Positions 2,079 through 9,471 of a stretch of 20,233 bases of DNA are shown in pieces (the first letter of the stretch is position 1; the number at the start of each line of letters is the position of its first letter). The notes beneath the pieces are model-generated. The model worked only from the letters and a program-made list of their open reading frames with translations. It was not told the origin of the DNA and did not search any database. The DNA comes from Thermoproteota archaeon (lineage in GTDB: Archaea; Korarchaeota; JAOZGF01; JAOZFZ01). The stretch is taken from NCBI GenBank assembly GCA_027492035.1, contig JAOZFT010000005.1:1-20233 (forward strand), in the 5' to 3' direction. Both the position numbers and the translations under genes were made by a program.

Positions 2079-3407
2079 TTACTTTACCTTCATTACATGA
2101 TACGCCTTAAACATCATTGGAAGGAAGTCACCCGGCCCTACTTCATAAACATCAACCCCTAAACTCTTCAATTTTGAAATGTTCCTTTTTCTTCTCTCCC
2201 TTTCTTCTTCTATTACATGTAAAGTTGACACGACGCAGAAATTATCCACGTCAGGAAAAACTTGGCCTGGTTTTTTAAAAAGGTAAGTGGAGGGTGACAC
2301 CACAACCGGGTTGTAACCCATTGAAACAGCTTTCTTTAAAGCTTCATAAACCTTTTTTTCAGCGAAATCTTCTAAGTCGGAAATTAATAAAACCTTTGCA
2401 GGGGTTTTAATTTTTTTACCCAGAAACTCAATAGCTTTCAAGAAATCAGGTTTACCGAAGCATTGAAGCAAAAAGGAAGTCTTCAAAATCGCGTAGAAAT
2501 GATTTAGAGTTGAACCAGGTTTAATATATGTTGATGTTTCCCTTGGCAAAAGAACACCGGAAACCGTAGGTATAATTATTCCTATTAAGTCACCGTTCCG
2601 AATGGCCTGACTCGCCAGAAACAAAACAGCCTTTTTCAAATAGTTTAGCTTTTCTCCAGCCATACTTTCACCTGTATCAATTATAATTACTAGCACTCTC
2701 CCAGTTCTCGCCTCGAATTCTTTTATGATAGGTTTGCCTAACCTTGCAGTCGCTTTCCAGTCAATGAACCTCAAGTCATCCCCAGGCTGGAACTCCCTAC
2801 TTGAGTAATAATCTGTACTTAAACCCTTCGATTTCAATGTGTAAGGCCCAATCCAAAAGTAACGTTTTTCTCTTTCTCCAACAAATACTTTTTTCAATTC
2901 AGAAACCCTTGGAAGCACAGTCACAAAACTAAAATTCTTTATTTCCCTCGAAAATCTAAAAAAACCAAGTTTATCTTGGAAAGAGAAATAAATAGGACCT
3001 ATAGTGAATGTCCCCTCCCTTCTCCCTTTCAAAACATATTCAGCCTTCACTTCACCTAAATCATTAGTTTCAACCTTAACTGGCAGTTTACCTTCCACAA
3101 GTGTTAAGGAATCACTTGGGAATTCATCGTTCAAAAAAAACTTTTTTAATAATTTATTTTTGCAATTAGACACTTCCAGTTTTACTGTCAGGAAGCCCCC
3201 CTCCACAATAAATCTCTCACTTAAAACCCTTTCAACTTTAATATTGCTTGAAAACATTATTTGTTCCAAAGAGAAAAGTAAGGAGAGAAAAGAAATAAAG
3301 AGAGGAACCGTAGACACAAGTATTAATAGAGGAAGCTGAAAAACAGCACCTAAAACCATTAATGAGAAACTGCCTACGTAAACAGAAATTACCCTTTTAG
3401 TGAACAA
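2079..3407 (-). CDS. DUF58 domain protein (von Willebrand A-like), MoxR partner
   Basis: About 442 residues. Two membrane helices lie near residues 8-45, followed by a beta-rich region and the DUF58 hallmark at about 204-222 (REFQPGDDLRFIDWKATAR). A vWA-like fold follows, with the MIDAS position reading DTGES at about 244-248. Canonical MIDAS is DxSxS, so the first serine is a glycine here. DUF58 proteins are membrane-associated partners of MoxR AAA+ ATPases. TTG 3407 is chosen as start: GAGGTG inside the last codons of moxR sits seven bases upstream, and the start falls one base after the moxR stop. The TTG at 3422 would precede that ribosome-binding site. The tight junction indicates co-translation with MoxR. 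Family assignment is firm; the molecular role is known only in general terms. Confidence 0.9.
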   Translation of the reverse strand: MFTKRVISVYVGSFSLMVLGAVFQLPLLILVSTVPLFISFLSLLFSLEQIMFSSNIKVERVLSERFIVEGGFLTVKLEVSNCKNKLLKKFFLNDEFPSDSLTLVEGKLPVKVETNDLGEVKAEYVLKGRREGTFTIGPIYFSFQDKLGFFRFSREIKNFSFVTVLPRVSELKKVFVGEREKRYFWIGPYTLKSKGLSTDYYSSREFQPGDDLRFIDWKATARLGKPIIKEFEARTGRVLVIIIDTGESMAGEKLNYLKKAVLFLASQAIRNGDLIGIIIPTVSGVLLPRETSTYIKPGSTLNHFYAILKTSFLLQCFGKPDFLKAIEFLGKKIKTPAKVLLISDLEDFAEKKVYEALKKAVSMGYNPVVVSPSTYLFKKPGQVFPDVDNFCVVSTLHVIEEERERRKRNISKLKSLGVDVYEVGPGDFLPMMFKAYHVMKVK

Positions 3408-3408
3408 G

Positions 3409-4881
3409 TTAAGGCACCTCAACTTCCCTTAAAACAGAGGAAATGATACTTTCAACAGTTACCCCTTCAAGTTCAGCTTCTGGTTTAAGCATGATCCTAT
3501 GTCTCAAAACAGGATTTGCAAGATACTTTACGTCGTCAGGTACCACGTAACTTCTACCGTTAAGCAGAGCTCTGCATTTACTCCCTTTAACAAAGGAAAT
3601 AGATGCTCTTGGACTTGGGCCGAGAAGCACTAATTCATGCCTCCTTGTTTCATGCACAATATCACTTATGTAATTAATCACTTTGTCATCAACAAAAATG
3701 TTTTCTTTCACCGTGTCCTGAAGAATTTTTAGAATTCTAGGTGACCCGATTGAATACATGTTTTTTATTGCTTCAAATCCCTTACCCTTCATTATATCTC
3801 TCTCCTCTTTTTTAGAGGGGTAATTAACTTTTATTTTAAACATAAACCTATCTATTTGGGCTTCAGGTAAATTATAAACGCCTTCCATTTCTAACGGGTT
3901 CTGAGTTGCAACCACAAAGAAAGGGTTTGGGAGAGGGAAAGTTTTTCCTTCAACAGTCACTTGTTTCTCTTGCATGGCTTCAAGTAAGGCGGATTGAGTG
4001 TTGTGAGTCAAGACGCCTCCATTCCATCCACAAACATAGCTTTCAGCACCATCCTCCATTGATAAATCAAAAAGCGCTTTCAGCTTCCCTTCCCCCTTAA
4101 CTTTAATTTTCTCGACATGCACTAGGTTTAAAGGGTGATTTTTGCTTTTTAAGGGCTGCATTACTGCTGAAACAATGTCTCCAACCCTTAAAGAGAATGC
4201 TTCTTTCCATTTAAACCTTCCCAGTTCATAAACGTGAAAAAAGTGACGAGGTGAACATTTAACCACTTGACCTGCACTCAGTTCAACTTCATAAACAGGT
4301 TTAAGGGTTAACTGCCTATAAAGATACTTAATTTTCCTTTTCACAACAAAGCCTCTTTGGTTAAGGGAATAGCTTTTAAGGTTTCTGCACACTTTAACAA
4401 ACTCTCCAGCCCCTACTCTTTTTTCAGTTGCTTTACAATTTTCATAAATTTTCCTTATTTCAACCTGCCCAGTGGATAAGTGTATAGGTGTTTCACCATC
4501 TAAACATTTAGGTGGGGCTCTGTTTATTTCATCCGCCAATATTATGTTAGAAAAAATAGGTCCCTGCATGAATTTGAATTCACCTTCCTTACTTGAATAA
4601 ATAAATGACCCTATTATGTCTGAAGGAAGCATGTCGCTTGTGAACTGAATCCTTTTGAAGCTACAGCCTAAAACTTTACTGAACCCTCTAGCTATAAGTG
4701 TTTTACCTAGACCAGGAACTCCTTCCAGTAATATGTGCCCCTCAGCTAAAATAGCTATCAATATTTTTTCAAGAAGCTCCCTCTTACCTACAACAACTTT
4801 TTTAAGTTCAAACAAAATTTCCTCTTTCAATTTCGGCGCTAAATCAAAAACAAATTTTTCTTTGGTTTTGTAATCTGCCAT
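3409..4881 (-). CDS. moxR: MoxR-family AAA+ ATPase interrupted by a mini-intein
   Basis: 490 residues as translated, 321 after removal of the intein, the usual size for MoxR. Walker A is GVPGLGKT (54-61) and Walker B is IILADE (113-118). The next conserved block, normally DEINRAPPKTQSALLEAMQE, is split after Lys125 by 169 intein residues and resumes at Thr295. Sensor 1 (VVATQNP, 323-329) and the downstream LPEAQIDRF block are present, followed by the C-terminal lid (GPSPRAS). MoxR ATPases act as chaperone-like remodelers with DUF58/vWA partners. ATG 4881 is preceded by AGGGGC overlapping the upstream stop; the upstream gene ends two bases away. Splicing is needed for a working enzyme, because the insertion separates Walker B from the following helix. 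The reading frame and all extein motifs are intact. Confidence 0.95.
   Translation of the reverse strand: MADYKTKEKFVFDLAPKLKEEILFELKKVVVGKRELLEKILIAILAEGHILLEGVPGLGKTLIARGFSKVLGCSFKRIQFTSDMLPSDIIGSFIYSSKEGEFKFMQGPIFSNIILADEINRAPPKCLDGETPIHLSTGQVEIRKIYENCKATEKRVGAGEFVKVCRNLKSYSLNQRGFVVKRKIKYLYRQLTLKPVYEVELSAGQVVKCSPRHFFHVYELGRFKWKEAFSLRVGDIVSAVMQPLKSKNHPLNLVHVEKIKVKGEGKLKALFDLSMEDGAESYVCGWNGGVLTHNTQSALLEAMQEKQVTVEGKTFPLPNPFFVVATQNPLEMEGVYNLPEAQIDRFMFKIKVNYPSKKEERDIMKGKGFEAIKNMYSIGSPRILKILQDTVKENIFVDDKVINYISDIVHETRRHELVLLGPSPRASISFVKGSKCRALLNGRSYVVPDDVKYLANPVLRHRIMLKPEAELEGVTVESIISSVLREVEVP
4000..4506 (-). other. Mini-intein (Hint domain) within MoxR
   Basis: 169 residues from Cys126 to Asn294 of the precursor. 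Block A begins CLDGETPIHLSTG; block B is VVKCSPRHFFHVYE, with SPRH in place of the usual TxxH; block F is around LFDLSMEDGAESY; block G is NGGVLTHN, ending in the penultimate His and terminal Asn. The +1 extein residue is Thr295. Removing the segment restores the uninterrupted RAPPK-TQSALLEAMQE motif of MoxR. Only about 45 residues separate blocks B and F, and no LAGLIDADG motif is seen, so there is no homing endonuclease. It is expected to splice by the class 1 route (Cys1, Asn, Thr+1). The His usually seen in block F is not obvious. The intein sits at a highly conserved nucleotide-binding site, as inteins typically do. Confidence 0.95.
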
Positions 4882-4883
4882 TT

Positions 4884-6203
4884 TTAAGCCCCTATCTTTT
4901 CTAAAACCTCCATTAAACTGTCACACATATTTATGAAATCTTTAAAGCCCACAACCTTCTTACTCCCCTTCTTAACCATTAAACATGACTCTAACAGTTT
5001 TTTTAATTCCTCACTTTTAACGCTTGGATACTTTTCCACAATCTCTTCATAAATTAATTTAGGAACAGAAATTTTTGGGTTAACTCCTACCCTTTCAAGA
5101 AACCACTCAAAAAAGGATGTTAAATACTTGTTGTAATCATTTTCAGAAGATTTAAATTCCGAAACTAATTCAGAACCCTTCCCTTCTCCACCTCCTCCTT
5201 TCACGCTTAAAAAGTTTAGTGGAGATTTTGAAAGATGGGAACCTACTGATTTAACAGTTAAGAGAATAAGAAATGAAAAAAAAACAATTGAAAAAAGAAA
5301 TGAAACTGAAAACCTGAAAATTAAAGGTTGTTGCGACCATTCAATCAGAAAAGTTAGGAAATAAATTGAAAGAGGCTTAAACAACCAAACCTTGGATTCA
5401 CAAACGTAAACAGTTACTTCCTTTTCAGGAGCTAAGTAGTTTAACATGTAATTAGCTGCTGCTAAGTTACTTCCTTTAAATAACATATCGTTAATGAAAA
5501 TATCGGGGTCGCTTACAATCACTGCTTTCCCTTCACCGTAAGACGTAAAAACTACTACTGGAAAGGGACCCCGGGGTTCATCTTCATCTCTTTCTAGGTT
5601 ATAGTTTACATCAAGCCAACTTGACCCTGAACTCTCAGCTTGAATTGACAAATTAACTTTTAACCACGTCCCATTTAACTTCACATAATATTTCCCGTTT
5701 TTAAGTTTGCCTTCAAAAACAAGTGCACTTGGGTGATTCAAAACCAAAGTGAAAACCTTTTTAAACCCTTTTTTAACTGTTAGGTTCACCAATGGAAAAA
5801 CAGGTTGTTTAGAGTAAAGAGAAGGTTCAAGAAGTAAATTTCTCCTAAACTCAACCCCAAAAACCCTTGAAAGGGAGTTCCCTTCCCTGAAATCATCAGC
5901 TAAAAGTAAACCGCCTCCATTATAAACAAATTCTTGAACAGCATCAACTTCCAAGTCACTTAATTTTTCAGCTGGACTTAAAAAAATTAATAATTTACCG
6001 TGTGGATTCGTTAAGTTAAGGGTTAAGGGAGAGTAGATAGTTTCTAACCTCCACCCCTTACCTTTAATGAATTCAGCAAAATCTGAACAACCGTCCCATT
6101 TCTTATTGAAAACTGAAAAAGCTGGTAAAGGATTGTAAAATAACAGGACTAGGAAAGAGAAAAAAAGGAGATAGAGTGCAGTATAAGAAAAAAGTTTGTT
6201 CAA
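4884..6203 (-). CDS. DUF4350-type membrane protein with Rossmann-like exported domain
   Basis: 439 residues. An N-terminal hydrophobic helix (about 7-28) is followed by an extracytoplasmic domain of about 240 residues with the DUF4350-like pattern: KLLIFLSPAEKLSDLE (70-85), then VYNGGGLLLADD (93-104) and AVIVSDPDIF (227-236). A second membrane helix (about 298-317) leads to a cytosolic helical tail of about 120 residues. DUF4350 proteins sit next to MoxR, DUF58 and DUF4129/transglutaminase genes in many prokaryotes, as here. The fold resembles a class I amidotransferase-like domain without its catalytic residues. The start is TTG 6203, preceded by AAGGTG, and the upstream gene ends 12 bp away. 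No enzyme activity can be assigned. Confidence 0.8.
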   Translation of the reverse strand: MNKLFSYTALYLLFFSFLVLLFYNPLPAFSVFNKKWDGCSDFAEFIKGKGWRLETIYSPLTLNLTNPHGKLLIFLSPAEKLSDLEVDAVQEFVYNGGGLLLADDFREGNSLSRVFGVEFRRNLLLEPSLYSKQPVFPLVNLTVKKGFKKVFTLVLNHPSALVFEGKLKNGKYYVKLNGTWLKVNLSIQAESSGSSWLDVNYNLERDEDEPRGPFPVVVFTSYGEGKAVIVSDPDIFINDMLFKGSNLAAANYMLNYLAPEKEVTVYVCESKVWLFKPLSIYFLTFLIEWSQQPLIFRFSVSFLFSIVFFSFLILLTVKSVGSHLSKSPLNFLSVKGGGGEGKGSELVSEFKSSENDYNKYLTSFFEWFLERVGVNPKISVPKLIYEEIVEKYPSVKSEELKKLLESCLMVKKGSKKVVGFKDFINMCDSLMEVLEKIGA

Positions 6204-6215
6204 ATCCTTAACACC

Positions 6216-8039
6216 TTATCCTAAACTTTTAAATTCCATTCCCTTTTCATTCCCCCTTCCCAACTTGTTTATGAAAAAGTCAATAATCAATGAAAAAACA
6301 AATATTGTTTTTAGATATTCAGCTGAAGTGATTTCTTCCCTTCCATACTTCGCCTTCTCTACAACTCTTGTGAAAAACTGAATATCGCTTTCATTCTTTT
6401 TATACTTATTAAAAACTTTTAGGAAAAATTCCCTAACTGTTTCTCCACGCTTCTTTTCCACCCCGTTTAATTTTGAAGCCATTTCAACTAAAAGGTCTCC
6501 AAGGAAGAGAACTCCTTCCCTGAAATTACTTGAATCATAAAAAGCAGCTACTCTTTCGACAATTTTCTCAAGGTCACTAATCAGTTTATCTTCCTCTTTT
6601 TCTTTACTTTCCACAGCTCCACCAACATTAAGTTTTTCTTCCTCTTCTTCCCTTTTTCTGCGTAAAGAGAAAGACACAGCTAAAACTGCAATTAAAACAG
6701 CTGAAAATGGAAATACTAAGAAGTATATGTTTCCTGCCAAACTTTGAATACTTGAAGTAAACCTTGTTTTGTTTTGAAATACGCTTGCGTTTACGCTAAC
6801 ATTAAATTTGTTAAATTTAATTTTTTCAGGATTAGTTTTGTTCAGAGACGCATTCTCATTACCAACTAATCTGTTCTCTTTCTCAGCTGACAAGTTAACA
6901 GCTGACAAGTTAACATTTGAAGCTGTTTTGTTACTAATCACAGATTTCCAACTTTTCTTTATTTGTTTTTTATGTACTACTTTAATTTTGTTCAGGGGTA
7001 AAACATCAATTGTTTCCAATTTAGATGGTGAAGGATCGACTGGGCACCAACCGACTCCTGGGAAGAAAACCTCTGCCCAACAATACTCATCGCCACTATG
7101 AACCCAGTATCCGTTGCCTGAAATATTAACCGGTTTAAAGCCAACAACCAGCCTGGCAGGTATGCCTATTTCCCTTGAAAGAAGCGTAAAAACTGTTGAG
7201 AAAAGAAAACTGTCACCTTTACCTTTCTTGAAGAAAAGAGAAATTGCTTCGTAAGTGGAAACGTTCCCAAAATCCACTTCAGAAACATACTTAAAACCTT
7301 TAAGGAAATCAATTAAAACCTTAACCTGTCCAGCCATGGTTAAGCTGCTGTTTTTAACTTTCTCAGCCGCCTCAACTAATTCAGGAGGTAACTTTGAAGG
7401 AAGAGAAGTAAACCTAGATTTCACTTCACTAGGTACATCTGAAACATCAGCTAAGGAAATTTTTGAGAGGTTATAGATTCTTTCTTGATAAGAAATGTTA
7501 TAGAGGAGGTAAGTTCCTGAAACATTTCCAGAAACCAAGACAGAACCAGTGTCTGTTAAGTAACTTTTCACTTCCACATTTGACACAGTTAACCCTTTAA
7601 CCGTTTCAATCATTGAAGGAACAGGAAGGATTCCTACGTACTTCCGTAAGCTTCCTTTATTAATTATAACTGTGAAAGAAGTAAGACTTGAAACATTAAC
7701 CTTGAGAGGGTATTCTTTACATTTATAACTGAACTGAGCCCATCCTTTACCGTCGAAAAAATCAAAAGAATCAACACGCCAAAGAACTTCTTTACTTAGG
7801 CCTGAAACATAAAACAGAGGCAAATTAGGTTTTATTTTCGATAAAGGGGTAAGTGGAAAGTAACCCCATTTAAAAGATAAGTTCCCAGTCACCCAAGAGA
7901 TTAAAAGTTCTTTACCCGGTGGAAGAGAAATTGCAGGGGCTAATTCATAATTTATGTGTTGAGGAGGCTGACCATAAGCAACTGACCATGTAGGGAAGAC
8001 AAAAAAAAGCATTAAAACTAAAATAAATTTTTTATCCAT
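6216..8039 (-). CDS. Transglutaminase-like membrane protein with DUF4129 tail, catalytic residues apparently lost
   Basis: 607 residues: signal-like helix (4-22), a beta-rich exported region, a transglutaminase-like core (about 235-340), a low-complexity N- and K-rich linker (about 350-430), a membrane helix (about 437-459) and a cytosolic DUF4129-like helical domain ending VEKAKYGREEITSAEYL. The core keeps the fold signature LLSREIGIPARLVVGF and GWCPVDPS. However, the position of the nucleophile Cys reads Ser277 (GKGDSFLFS) and the position of the catalytic His two residues before Trp reads Tyr319 (DEYCWAEV); Asp335 remains. The protein is therefore probably not a transglutaminase or protease but a binding or scaffold module. 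ATG 8039 follows AAGGTGAG by seven bases, overlapping the upstream stop. Such proteins belong to MoxR/DUF58 gene sets. Confidence 0.88.
   Translation of the reverse strand: MDKKFILVLMLFFVFPTWSVAYGQPPQHINYELAPAISLPPGKELLISWVTGNLSFKWGYFPLTPLSKIKPNLPLFYVSGLSKEVLWRVDSFDFFDGKGWAQFSYKCKEYPLKVNVSSLTSFTVIINKGSLRKYVGILPVPSMIETVKGLTVSNVEVKSYLTDTGSVLVSGNVSGTYLLYNISYQERIYNLSKISLADVSDVPSEVKSRFTSLPSKLPPELVEAAEKVKNSSLTMAGQVKVLIDFLKGFKYVSEVDFGNVSTYEAISLFFKKGKGDSFLFSTVFTLLSREIGIPARLVVGFKPVNISGNGYWVHSGDEYCWAEVFFPGVGWCPVDPSPSKLETIDVLPLNKIKVVHKKQIKKSWKSVISNKTASNVNLSAVNLSAEKENRLVGNENASLNKTNPEKIKFNKFNVSVNASVFQNKTRFTSSIQSLAGNIYFLVFPFSAVLIAVLAVSFSLRRKREEEEEKLNVGGAVESKEKEEDKLISDLEKIVERVAAFYDSSNFREGVLFLGDLLVEMASKLNGVEKKRGETVREFFLKVFNKYKKNESDIQFFTRVVEKAKYGREEITSAEYLKTIFVFSLIIDFFINKLGRGNEKGMEFKSLG
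6885..6914 (-). repeat. Tandem 15-bp duplication in the linker of the transglutaminase-like gene
   Basis: Two perfect copies of AGCTGACAAGTTAAC, read on the plus strand, lie head to tail. On the coding strand they give VNLSA twice in the linker between the transglutaminase-like core and the membrane helix. The unit is a multiple of three, so the frame is kept; each copy adds an N-x-S sequon. It looks like a recent slippage duplication. Confidence 0.85.
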
Positions 8040-8046
8040 TTAATTC

Positions 8047-8820
8047 TCACCTTAAGAATCTGTAAACAGTTTCCACATATTCACCCTCAGGTGAAACAAT
8101 CGTTGACTCTATAAACACAGAGTCACCTGTTGATTCACAAAGTACACAAGCAACTAAACTACAGAATGGACACCCTATTTGTTCACATAAACCAGGATAT
8201 TTTCCTTTAATGCTTCTGCAAAGTTTTCCTGTAAGTAAACCTGTAAACCTGACTTTCACCCTATCCTCTTCAAAAACATAATCCAGAGTTTTCAAAACTT
8301 CAAGTTTATTTAAGCCTTCTGAAACCTTATTAATGGCTTCATGAACCTCTAACTTTTTAAATTTTACATTCAAAAACTTTTCAATTAATTTTTCCAGGGT
8401 ATAACCAGGAGGATCTAAAACAAACCCGCTTGGTGCATAAATTCTCAAACTCCTCTTATCAATGACGCCTTCTAGAGGGACATAGGTTTCTGCTTCACTT
8501 AAAGGAACAAAAACTTTTATTAAGGACTCAGACCCTTTAAGAGAAAGATAAACCCCTCTTCCCTTGCATCCTTCAACCAAAAAAAGTGTTCGGTAATAAT
8601 TAAAGGAGTTTTCAATGAAGGGGTGAAGCAAATCTGCTTTAATGAAACCTCGGTAGCCAATGAGGTAAACAATTGCTCCGTAAAAAATGCATCCCGCACC
8701 TATTAACCCTAAAATTAAAGATTCATATCGAAAAGAAAAAAACAGAAAAATGAAACCAAGAGAGAAGAGGATTAAGACAGGTAACCGGGAAATTTTCCTC
8801 ACATACAAAACATTCTCCAT
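8047..8820 (-). CDS. Membrane protein with a six-cysteine C-terminal domain, MoxR operon
   Basis: 257 residues. Two membrane helices lie near residues 13-30 and 35-56, followed by a soluble domain. The distal part carries six cysteines at 201, 212, 217, 220, 225 and 228 (spacing 10, 4, 2, 4, 2), around CEQIGCPFCSLVACVLCES. This could bind zinc or an iron-sulfur cluster, though the hydrophobic residues between the last cysteines also fit a buried helix. ATG 8820 is chosen as start because GAGGAG lies six bases upstream; TTG 8826 would abut the site. The gene is eight bases from the transglutaminase-like gene and 15 from the gene before it, so it belongs to the operon. I do not recognise a named family with confidence. 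Confidence 0.75.
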   Translation of the reverse strand: MENVLYVRKISRLPVLILFSLGFIFLFFSFRYESLILGLIGAGCIFYGAIVYLIGYRGFIKADLLHPFIENSFNYYRTLFLVEGCKGRGVYLSLKGSESLIKVFVPLSEAETYVPLEGVIDKRSLRIYAPSGFVLDPPGYTLEKLIEKFLNVKFKKLEVHEAINKVSEGLNKLEVLKTLDYVFEEDRVKVRFTGLLTGKLCRSIKGKYPGLCEQIGCPFCSLVACVLCESTGDSVFIESTIVSPEGEYVETVYRFLR

Positions 8821-8835
8821 CTTCAACTCCTCTTC

Positions 8836-9133: not shown

Positions 9134-9177
9134 TTTTTAAAAACTTACATTAGATTTTGAAAGAAGGGGGCTTAACA

Positions 9178-9471
9178 ATGGAGCAAGAACAGGAAATAAA
9201 TAAGTTAGTAATAGAGACAGTGAAAAAATTAAACAGTGAAAAAGGAAAAGTGAAAGTAAGCGATGTAGCAGTTTATTTAGAGGACAAGTACGGTTTAGAA
9301 AAAACCGAAATAGTTAACAGAATAATAAAAATGGAGAAAAGCGGCGTCATTAAACTTTCCGATTTACCCATAAACTTGGAGAAATACCCTACAGAAATAA
9401 CTCAATTGAACAATAAAGTAAAAAAGTTAATTCAAATTATAAAACAAAAAAGAAAAATAACTGAAACTTAA
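9178..9471 (+). CDS. Small winged-helix-like protein, possible regulator
   Basis: 97 residues, highly charged and without membrane helices. Residues about 5-55 have the helix-helix-turn-helix spacing of a small winged-helix domain (KVKVSDVAVYLEDKYGLEKTEIVNRIIKMEKSGVIKL); the rest is a basic helical tail ending KKLIQIIKQKRK. ATG 9178 lies seven bases after AAGGGGG. The gene is divergent from the MoxR operon, sharing a 138-bp control region, and ends 19 bp before the convergent permease gene. Divergent placement next to an operon is typical of a local regulator, so control of the MoxR operon is a reasonable guess; nothing in the sequence proves DNA binding. Confidence 0.65.
   Translation: MEQEQEINKLVIETVKKLNSEKGKVKVSDVAVYLEDKYGLEKTEIVNRIIKMEKSGVIKLSDLPINLEKYPTEITQLNNKVKKLIQIIKQKRKITET

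Follow-up and report, generated by a model that had tools for sequence, protein, structure and literature searches.

Proteins that resemble TgpA and are encoded beside MoxR usually carry the annotation transglutaminase or protease. The Pseudomonas aeruginosa protein TgpA (PA2873) has transglutaminase activity in vitro (PMC3507681), and its structure (PDB 6g49/6g4h) combines a periplasmic beta domain with a transglutaminase core. The archaeal DUF4350 family (arCOG01314) has been assigned to a predicted secretion or membrane-remodelling complex by Makarova, Galperin and Koonin in 2015 (PMC5898192); the main text of that paper lists Ig-like S-layer proteins for the complex and mentions no transglutaminase domain. 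Transglutaminase folds that have outlived their catalytic residues are described from eukaryotes, where XPC/Rad4, menin, EPB42 and FBXO21 are pseudo-transglutaminases (PMC10318531); the domain serves binding or scaffolding in XPC and menin, and menin has Ser in place of Cys. These proteins differ from the one described here in belonging to other clades and compartments, and none is encoded in a MoxR operon or is of TgpA type. Our literature search on transglutaminases together with MoxR, DUF58, archaea or Asgard, largely limited to papers outside subscription, returned no account of triad loss.

The gene examined here occupies positions 6216-8039 (minus strand) of a 20,233-nucleotide stretch of DNA from a Thermoproteota archaeon, referred to below as the window; it starts with ATG and encodes 607 amino acids. 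It sits in a cluster whose genes all lie on the minus strand, separated by a few bases or overlapping: p259 (8047-8826), the transglutaminase-like gene, a conserved neighbour encoding a DUF4350 membrane protein (4884-6203; Pfam E 6.6e-18), a MoxR AAA+ ATPase (3409-4881; AAA_3, E 1.5e-58), a DUF58 (vWA-type) protein (2079-3422; E 1.7e-17), and p206 (1439-2059), which has no Pfam match and is conserved in genomes G023 and G024. This order is retained in G023 and G024, and in G001 and G028 for the parts that fit their short contigs. MoxR and DUF58 genes beside a transglutaminase gene form the TgpA-type neighbourhood, also found around the bacterial TgpA relatives in our survey. DUF4350, MoxR and a vWA protein in one operon are the genes of the arCOG01314 complex, which the locus further resembles in having extracellular membrane-anchored components. 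Searches of the cluster proteins gave no Ig-like Pfam match and no NCBIfam match.

Several features of the neighbouring genes deserve mention in their own right. The MoxR gene carries an in-frame mini-intein of 169 amino acids (about 4000-4506, minus strand; Pfam Intein_splicing, E 4.6e-7) that starts at Cys126, ends with HN before Thr295, and is inserted directly after the Walker B motif LADEINRAPPK. It is absent from MoxR of G023 and of the other archaea checked, and a literature search for archaeal MoxR inteins found no paper. In the DUF58 protein, the vWA motif reads IIDTGESM, so that Gly takes the position which the first Ser holds in the usual D-x-S-x-S metal site. The first gene of the cluster, p259, encodes a membrane protein with N-terminal TM helices and a V4R/Bet3-like domain whose model matches the TRAPP Bet3 / V4R / H-NOX group (2cfh, Z 8.1; Thorarchaeota TRAPPC3 7yh2, Z 7.9; MopR sensor 5kbi, Z 6.7; Foldseek alone gave a weak match). 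It has four invariant Cys (C203, C214, C219 and C222; proteins of the same type are L026, L027, L028 and L029), and a weak relative lies upstream of the transglutaminase gene in L116 (E 0.03); p259 is a possible metal-binding sensor. Divergent from the operon, a gene at 9157-9471 (plus strand) encodes a 104-amino-acid protein, possibly a regulator, that adjoins p259 in G001, G024 and G028. A search of the window for repeats gave nothing relevant.

The 607-residue protein consists, in order, of a signal peptide, a TgpA-like ectodomain, an Asn/Ser/Thr-rich linker, a single TM helix, and a cytoplasmic DUF4129-like tail. The predicted signal peptide (residues 1-22; 7974-8039, minus strand as for all parts of the gene) corresponds to a hydropathy peak at residues 3-21 and a model helix at 3-20, with a putative cleavage site. 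That peak is the only hydrophobic segment of the N-terminus, in contrast to the multi-TM bundle (DUF3488/TgpA_N) of bacterial TgpA; the TgpA_N match covers only the last third of the profile (E 0.057). The ectodomain (residues 44-343; 7011-7910), supported by superposition on 6g49, includes the transglutaminase core (residues 233-336; 7032-7343), which matches Pfam PF01841 with E 3.4e-17 and 63.1 bits, above the curated cut-off of 23 for superfamily membership. Of 17 N-glycosylation sequons in the protein, many fall in the linker. The TM helix (about residues 439-461; 6657-6725), placed by hydropathy and a model helix at 439-469, precedes RRKR and a helical bundle on the cytoplasmic side (residues 475-592; 6264-6617). 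The bundle matches DUF4129 below cut-off (E 0.0044); the match is above cut-off in the relatives L170 and L187. Helical proteins of the HEPN type align with it as well (2hsb, Z 9.2, rmsd 3.5, 112 residues), a likeness that may reflect a common helical-bundle arrangement only.

An AlphaFold2 model of the protein has a mean pLDDT of 74, with most of residues 191-340 above 85. It superposes on P. aeruginosa TgpA (6g49) with Z 22.1 and rmsd 3.4 over 257 residues, and Foldseek matches it to TgpA with E 1.4e-14; the best structural match outside TgpA, 3isr, scores far lower (Z 11.3). A search of the PDB with the protein alone returned only TgpA (6g49, E 8.7e-7). A sequence-only reading of the window had proposed an intact transglutaminase fold, and both this superposition and the Pfam match bear it out.

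The same reading had placed the catalytic Cys at Ser277 and the catalytic His at Tyr319, leaving Asp335 as the sole triad residue kept. These numbers proved right. A profile of 31 sequences matches TgpA 6g49 over the ectodomain with E 8e-41, pairing GDS with GFC, DEYCW with DAHAW, and VDPS with VDPT of TgpA; Ser277 (codon 7209-7211) falls on the Cys of SGFCAHY, Tyr319 on the His of DAHAW, and Asp335 (codon 7035-7037) on the Asp of SVDPT. In the model, the central helix (277-290) begins with Ser277, at the place where the profile puts the catalytic Cys, Tyr319 lies within the strand 318-326, and Asp335 just follows the strand 330-334, in a region mostly above pLDDT 85. The profile match, together with the superposition, rules out a shifted alignment. 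Cys320, which adjoins Tyr319 (the two codons span 7080-7085), aligns with the Ala of HAW in active enzymes. Ser-Tyr-Asp thus stands where TgpA has Cys-His-Asp, and from sequence and model the archaeal protein would be expected to lack transglutaminase activity.

Within the small phylum-level group to which the window genome belongs, presumably korarchaeal, orthologs are present in four of the 29 genomes searched (records QMVZ01000028, QMVU01000220, JAOZFL010000195 and JAOZGB010000006, all from 'Thermoproteota archaeon' MAGs). Scanning genome contigs with the single protein as query found no relative; an alignment used as query found them. Three orthologs, 66, 37 and 29% identical to the window protein, cover the active site, and the fourth ends at a contig edge before reaching it. 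Of the two substitutions singled out at the start, the serine is conserved in all three, as is Asp335, whereas the tyrosine is not: the His position holds Tyr, Tyr and Arg. Since relatives from separate MAGs share these substitutions, neither sequencing error nor chance accounts for them. The Cys320 column contains Ala, Ser and Met, in agreement with the earlier view that this residue is not catalytic. We looked for another Cys-His pair and found none: the G023 ortholog has one Cys in the entire protein (residue 577, on the cytoplasmic side behind the TM helix) and so offers no alternative pair outside the membrane, and H28, which adjoins the signal peptide, is the only His in the mature domain that the orthologs conserve. 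The 607-residue protein is under purifying selection (dN 0.21, dS 1.0, and dN/dS about 0.21 between the window gene and its G001 ortholog; NG86, 381 codons).

To place this triad loss in context, we typed the triad in 179 non-redundant transglutaminase domains, retrieved with profiles that mixed Cys-bearing and Cys-less sequences, the hits being ranked by similarity to those profiles. The surveyed genes mostly adjoin MoxR and DUF58, and often DUF4350. His is kept in all 100 Cys-bearing domains, and the residue after it is non-aromatic (Ala, Ser, Gly or Arg) in every one. Bacterial TgpA proteins retain the Cys in 70 of 74 cases. The four exceptions (L030, L036, L038 and L082) are of a Chloroflexota type with Ser-His-Glu instead of Cys-His-Glu, a candidate serine variant; they resemble the window protein in having Ser for Cys in a TgpA-type protein with MoxR nearby (three of four), but differ in keeping His and the acidic residue. 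In archaeal MoxR/DUF58/DUF4350 clusters, by contrast with the intact triad of TgpA, the Cys is usually replaced by S, P, G, A, W, F or N. The suggestion that the protein is a non-enzymatic module of its MoxR system is thereby supported, on sequence and model grounds, by how common Cys loss is in clusters of this kind.

One set of these domains comes from a phylum of 227 genomes, probably the Asgard archaea, in which gelsolin was found in 8 of 11 genomes tested compared to 0 of 14 controls. Here 55 of 58 domains are without Cys, and 16 of the 19 families sampled contain Cys-less copies only, with one mixed and two C-H-D. The His site is occupied by H, M, Y, A, I, T, V or L and the Cys site by P, S, W, G, F, A or N. 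One large family, with proteins of more than 2000 amino acids, combines Pro at the Cys site with hydrophobic residues at both the His site (Met among them) and the Asp site; another has Trp at the Cys site together with Tyr, and the rest have Ser, Gly, Ala, Asn, Pro or Phe. Because some Cys-less copies of this phylum have no MoxR gene within the stretch read, Cys loss is linked to clade first and to the cluster second.

The Thermococcaceae were recognised by a PCNA in G075 identical to PDB 6t7x, which we take to be the P. abyssi protein. Among genomes with a match, the genus taken as Pyrococcus (g36) is C-H-D throughout; the genus taken as Thermococcus (g15) shows S-H-D, A-H-D, P-H-D, S-Q-D, S-W-D or S-S-D. 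We infer these two genus names, as well as the Asgard and korarchaeal group names, from such indications. In three Thermococcus-type genomes (L246, L247 and L248) the protein is present in two copies, one Cys-less and one intact. Tandem domains occur within one protein in L189 (C-H-D followed by P-H-D) and L194 (F-H-D and S-H-D). C-H-D is retained not only in Pyrococcus but also in other archaeal MoxR clusters (L123, L187 and the first of the L189 repeats); not every version of the system is therefore non-catalytic. Other archaeal transglutaminase types, without MoxR neighbours, keep both Cys and His. The longer transglutaminase proteins of other archaea match Big_1, Big_3_5 and CarboxypepD_reg; Ig-like and CarboxypepD_reg domains are typical of surface proteins. 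Some of the Ig-like S-layer proteins of PMC5898192 may be these long transglutaminase-plus-Ig proteins.

The framework of the fold has fared differently from its chemistry. In the 75 archaeal Cys-less domains, the positions of G275, R289, R296, G300, E323 and W331 are 99-100% conserved and that of W321 97%, as in Cys-bearing domains, while the His is kept in 37% and the Asp in 63%. Selection therefore appears to act on the fold but not on the chemistry. Phe or Tyr follows the His site in 54 of these 75 domains, compared to 0 of 100 Cys-bearing domains, where this residue is mostly Ala or Ser; the korarchaeal set has Cys, Ala, Ser or Met there. A bulky Phe or Tyr suggests, as far as sequence can tell, a crowded or filled active-site pocket. 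For joint change of the Cys and of the residue after the His site, the well-supported branches offer three independent pairs, too few for a statistical test. Parsimony requires 5 changes of Cys state when regain is allowed; without regain, the number of losses is 11 on the best tree, falling to 7 when branches with support below 80 are collapsed and to 4 when those below 95 are. Since the count varies with the support threshold, we claim several losses and no fixed number.

Triad loss shared by orthologs at 29-66% identity, an intact fold, dN/dS of about 0.21 and a kept operon lead us to regard the protein as a conserved TgpA-type pseudo-transglutaminase. Our preferred reading, with a probability of roughly 0.7, is that it forms a non-catalytic, protein-binding or scaffold ectodomain of a membrane complex driven by MoxR and the vWA protein. 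This reading is strengthened by the recurrence of Cys loss in archaea with different residues, by the near-complete conservation of framework positions in Cys-less domains, and by a second transglutaminase of the genome, G000:C38, whose triad is intact. Instead of doing chemistry, the ectodomain would bind or scaffold on the outer side of the membrane, its old substrate groove perhaps holding a peptide or a partner surface protein unprocessed. The TM helix and DUF4129-like tail would connect it to the cytoplasmic MoxR ATPase and DUF58 protein; these would assemble or remodel the complex with ATP, and the tail would either pass binding on to them or receive remodelling from them. Such a mechanism is consistent with the complex predicted for arCOG01314.

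An alternative casts the pseudo-enzyme as a regulator or competitor of another, active transglutaminase-like protein of the cell. The same genome does encode a second transglutaminase with Cys, His and Asp (G000:C38), and the three Thermococcus-type genomes pair Cys-less with Cys-bearing copies. However, G000:C38 lies on another contig and has a different, shorter architecture (351 amino acids), and the stable neighbours of the gene are MoxR, DUF58 and DUF4350; we consider this role unlikely. Ser277 could instead be a working nucleophile, in which case the protein would be a hydrolase or acyltransferase of the serine type, using some other general base. The invariance of Ser277 in all four sequences covering the site could mean use, but invariance extends to many other columns. 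S-H-D, in principle the set of a serine hydrolase, is found in many relatives, S-H-E relatives also exist, and a 2023 census of papain-like proteins describes conserved Ser-for-Cys families and residual activity in C-to-S mutants (PMC10318531). Tyr or Arg at the His position of the korarchaeal-type orthologs nonetheless argues against this chemistry, as do the Pro, Gly, Ala, Trp, Phe or Asn found at the Cys site in equivalent archaeal clusters, which are incapable of acting as a nucleophile, and we hold it to be distinctly improbable. There is still less to commend the idea of a recently inactivated enzyme heading for loss, without present function: the series of triads within Thermococcus does look like stepwise decay, but the long open frame, the low dN/dS, the same loss at about 30% identity and the retention of the whole operon make it very improbable. 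Finally, a misread alignment with another catalytic Cys-His pair, for example one using Cys320 next to the His position, is scarcely credible given the variability of that column and the want of a conserved Cys or His in the folded domain, and is refuted by the G023 ortholog, whose ectodomain has no Cys.

Beyond this locus, the pseudo-transglutaminase reading can be extended tentatively, at somewhat short of even odds, to MoxR-DUF58-DUF4350 as a widespread archaeal surface machine (Asgard, Thermococcus and korarchaeal-type) in which the transglutaminase subunit has more than once turned into a non-catalytic receptor or scaffold, binding being the essential role of the fold. Pyrococcus, with the triad intact, and Thermococcus, with the triad lost, form a natural genus pair for a direct test, and genetic tools exist for both. 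The findings also counsel caution, in that TgpA-like proteins of archaeal MoxR clusters should not be annotated as enzymes. If the active site has gone from most archaeal versions and they nevertheless keep the fold, the operon and selection on the framework, then the common function of the operon would be independent of transglutaminase chemistry: the MoxR machine probably needs the fold of the enzyme, not its chemistry.
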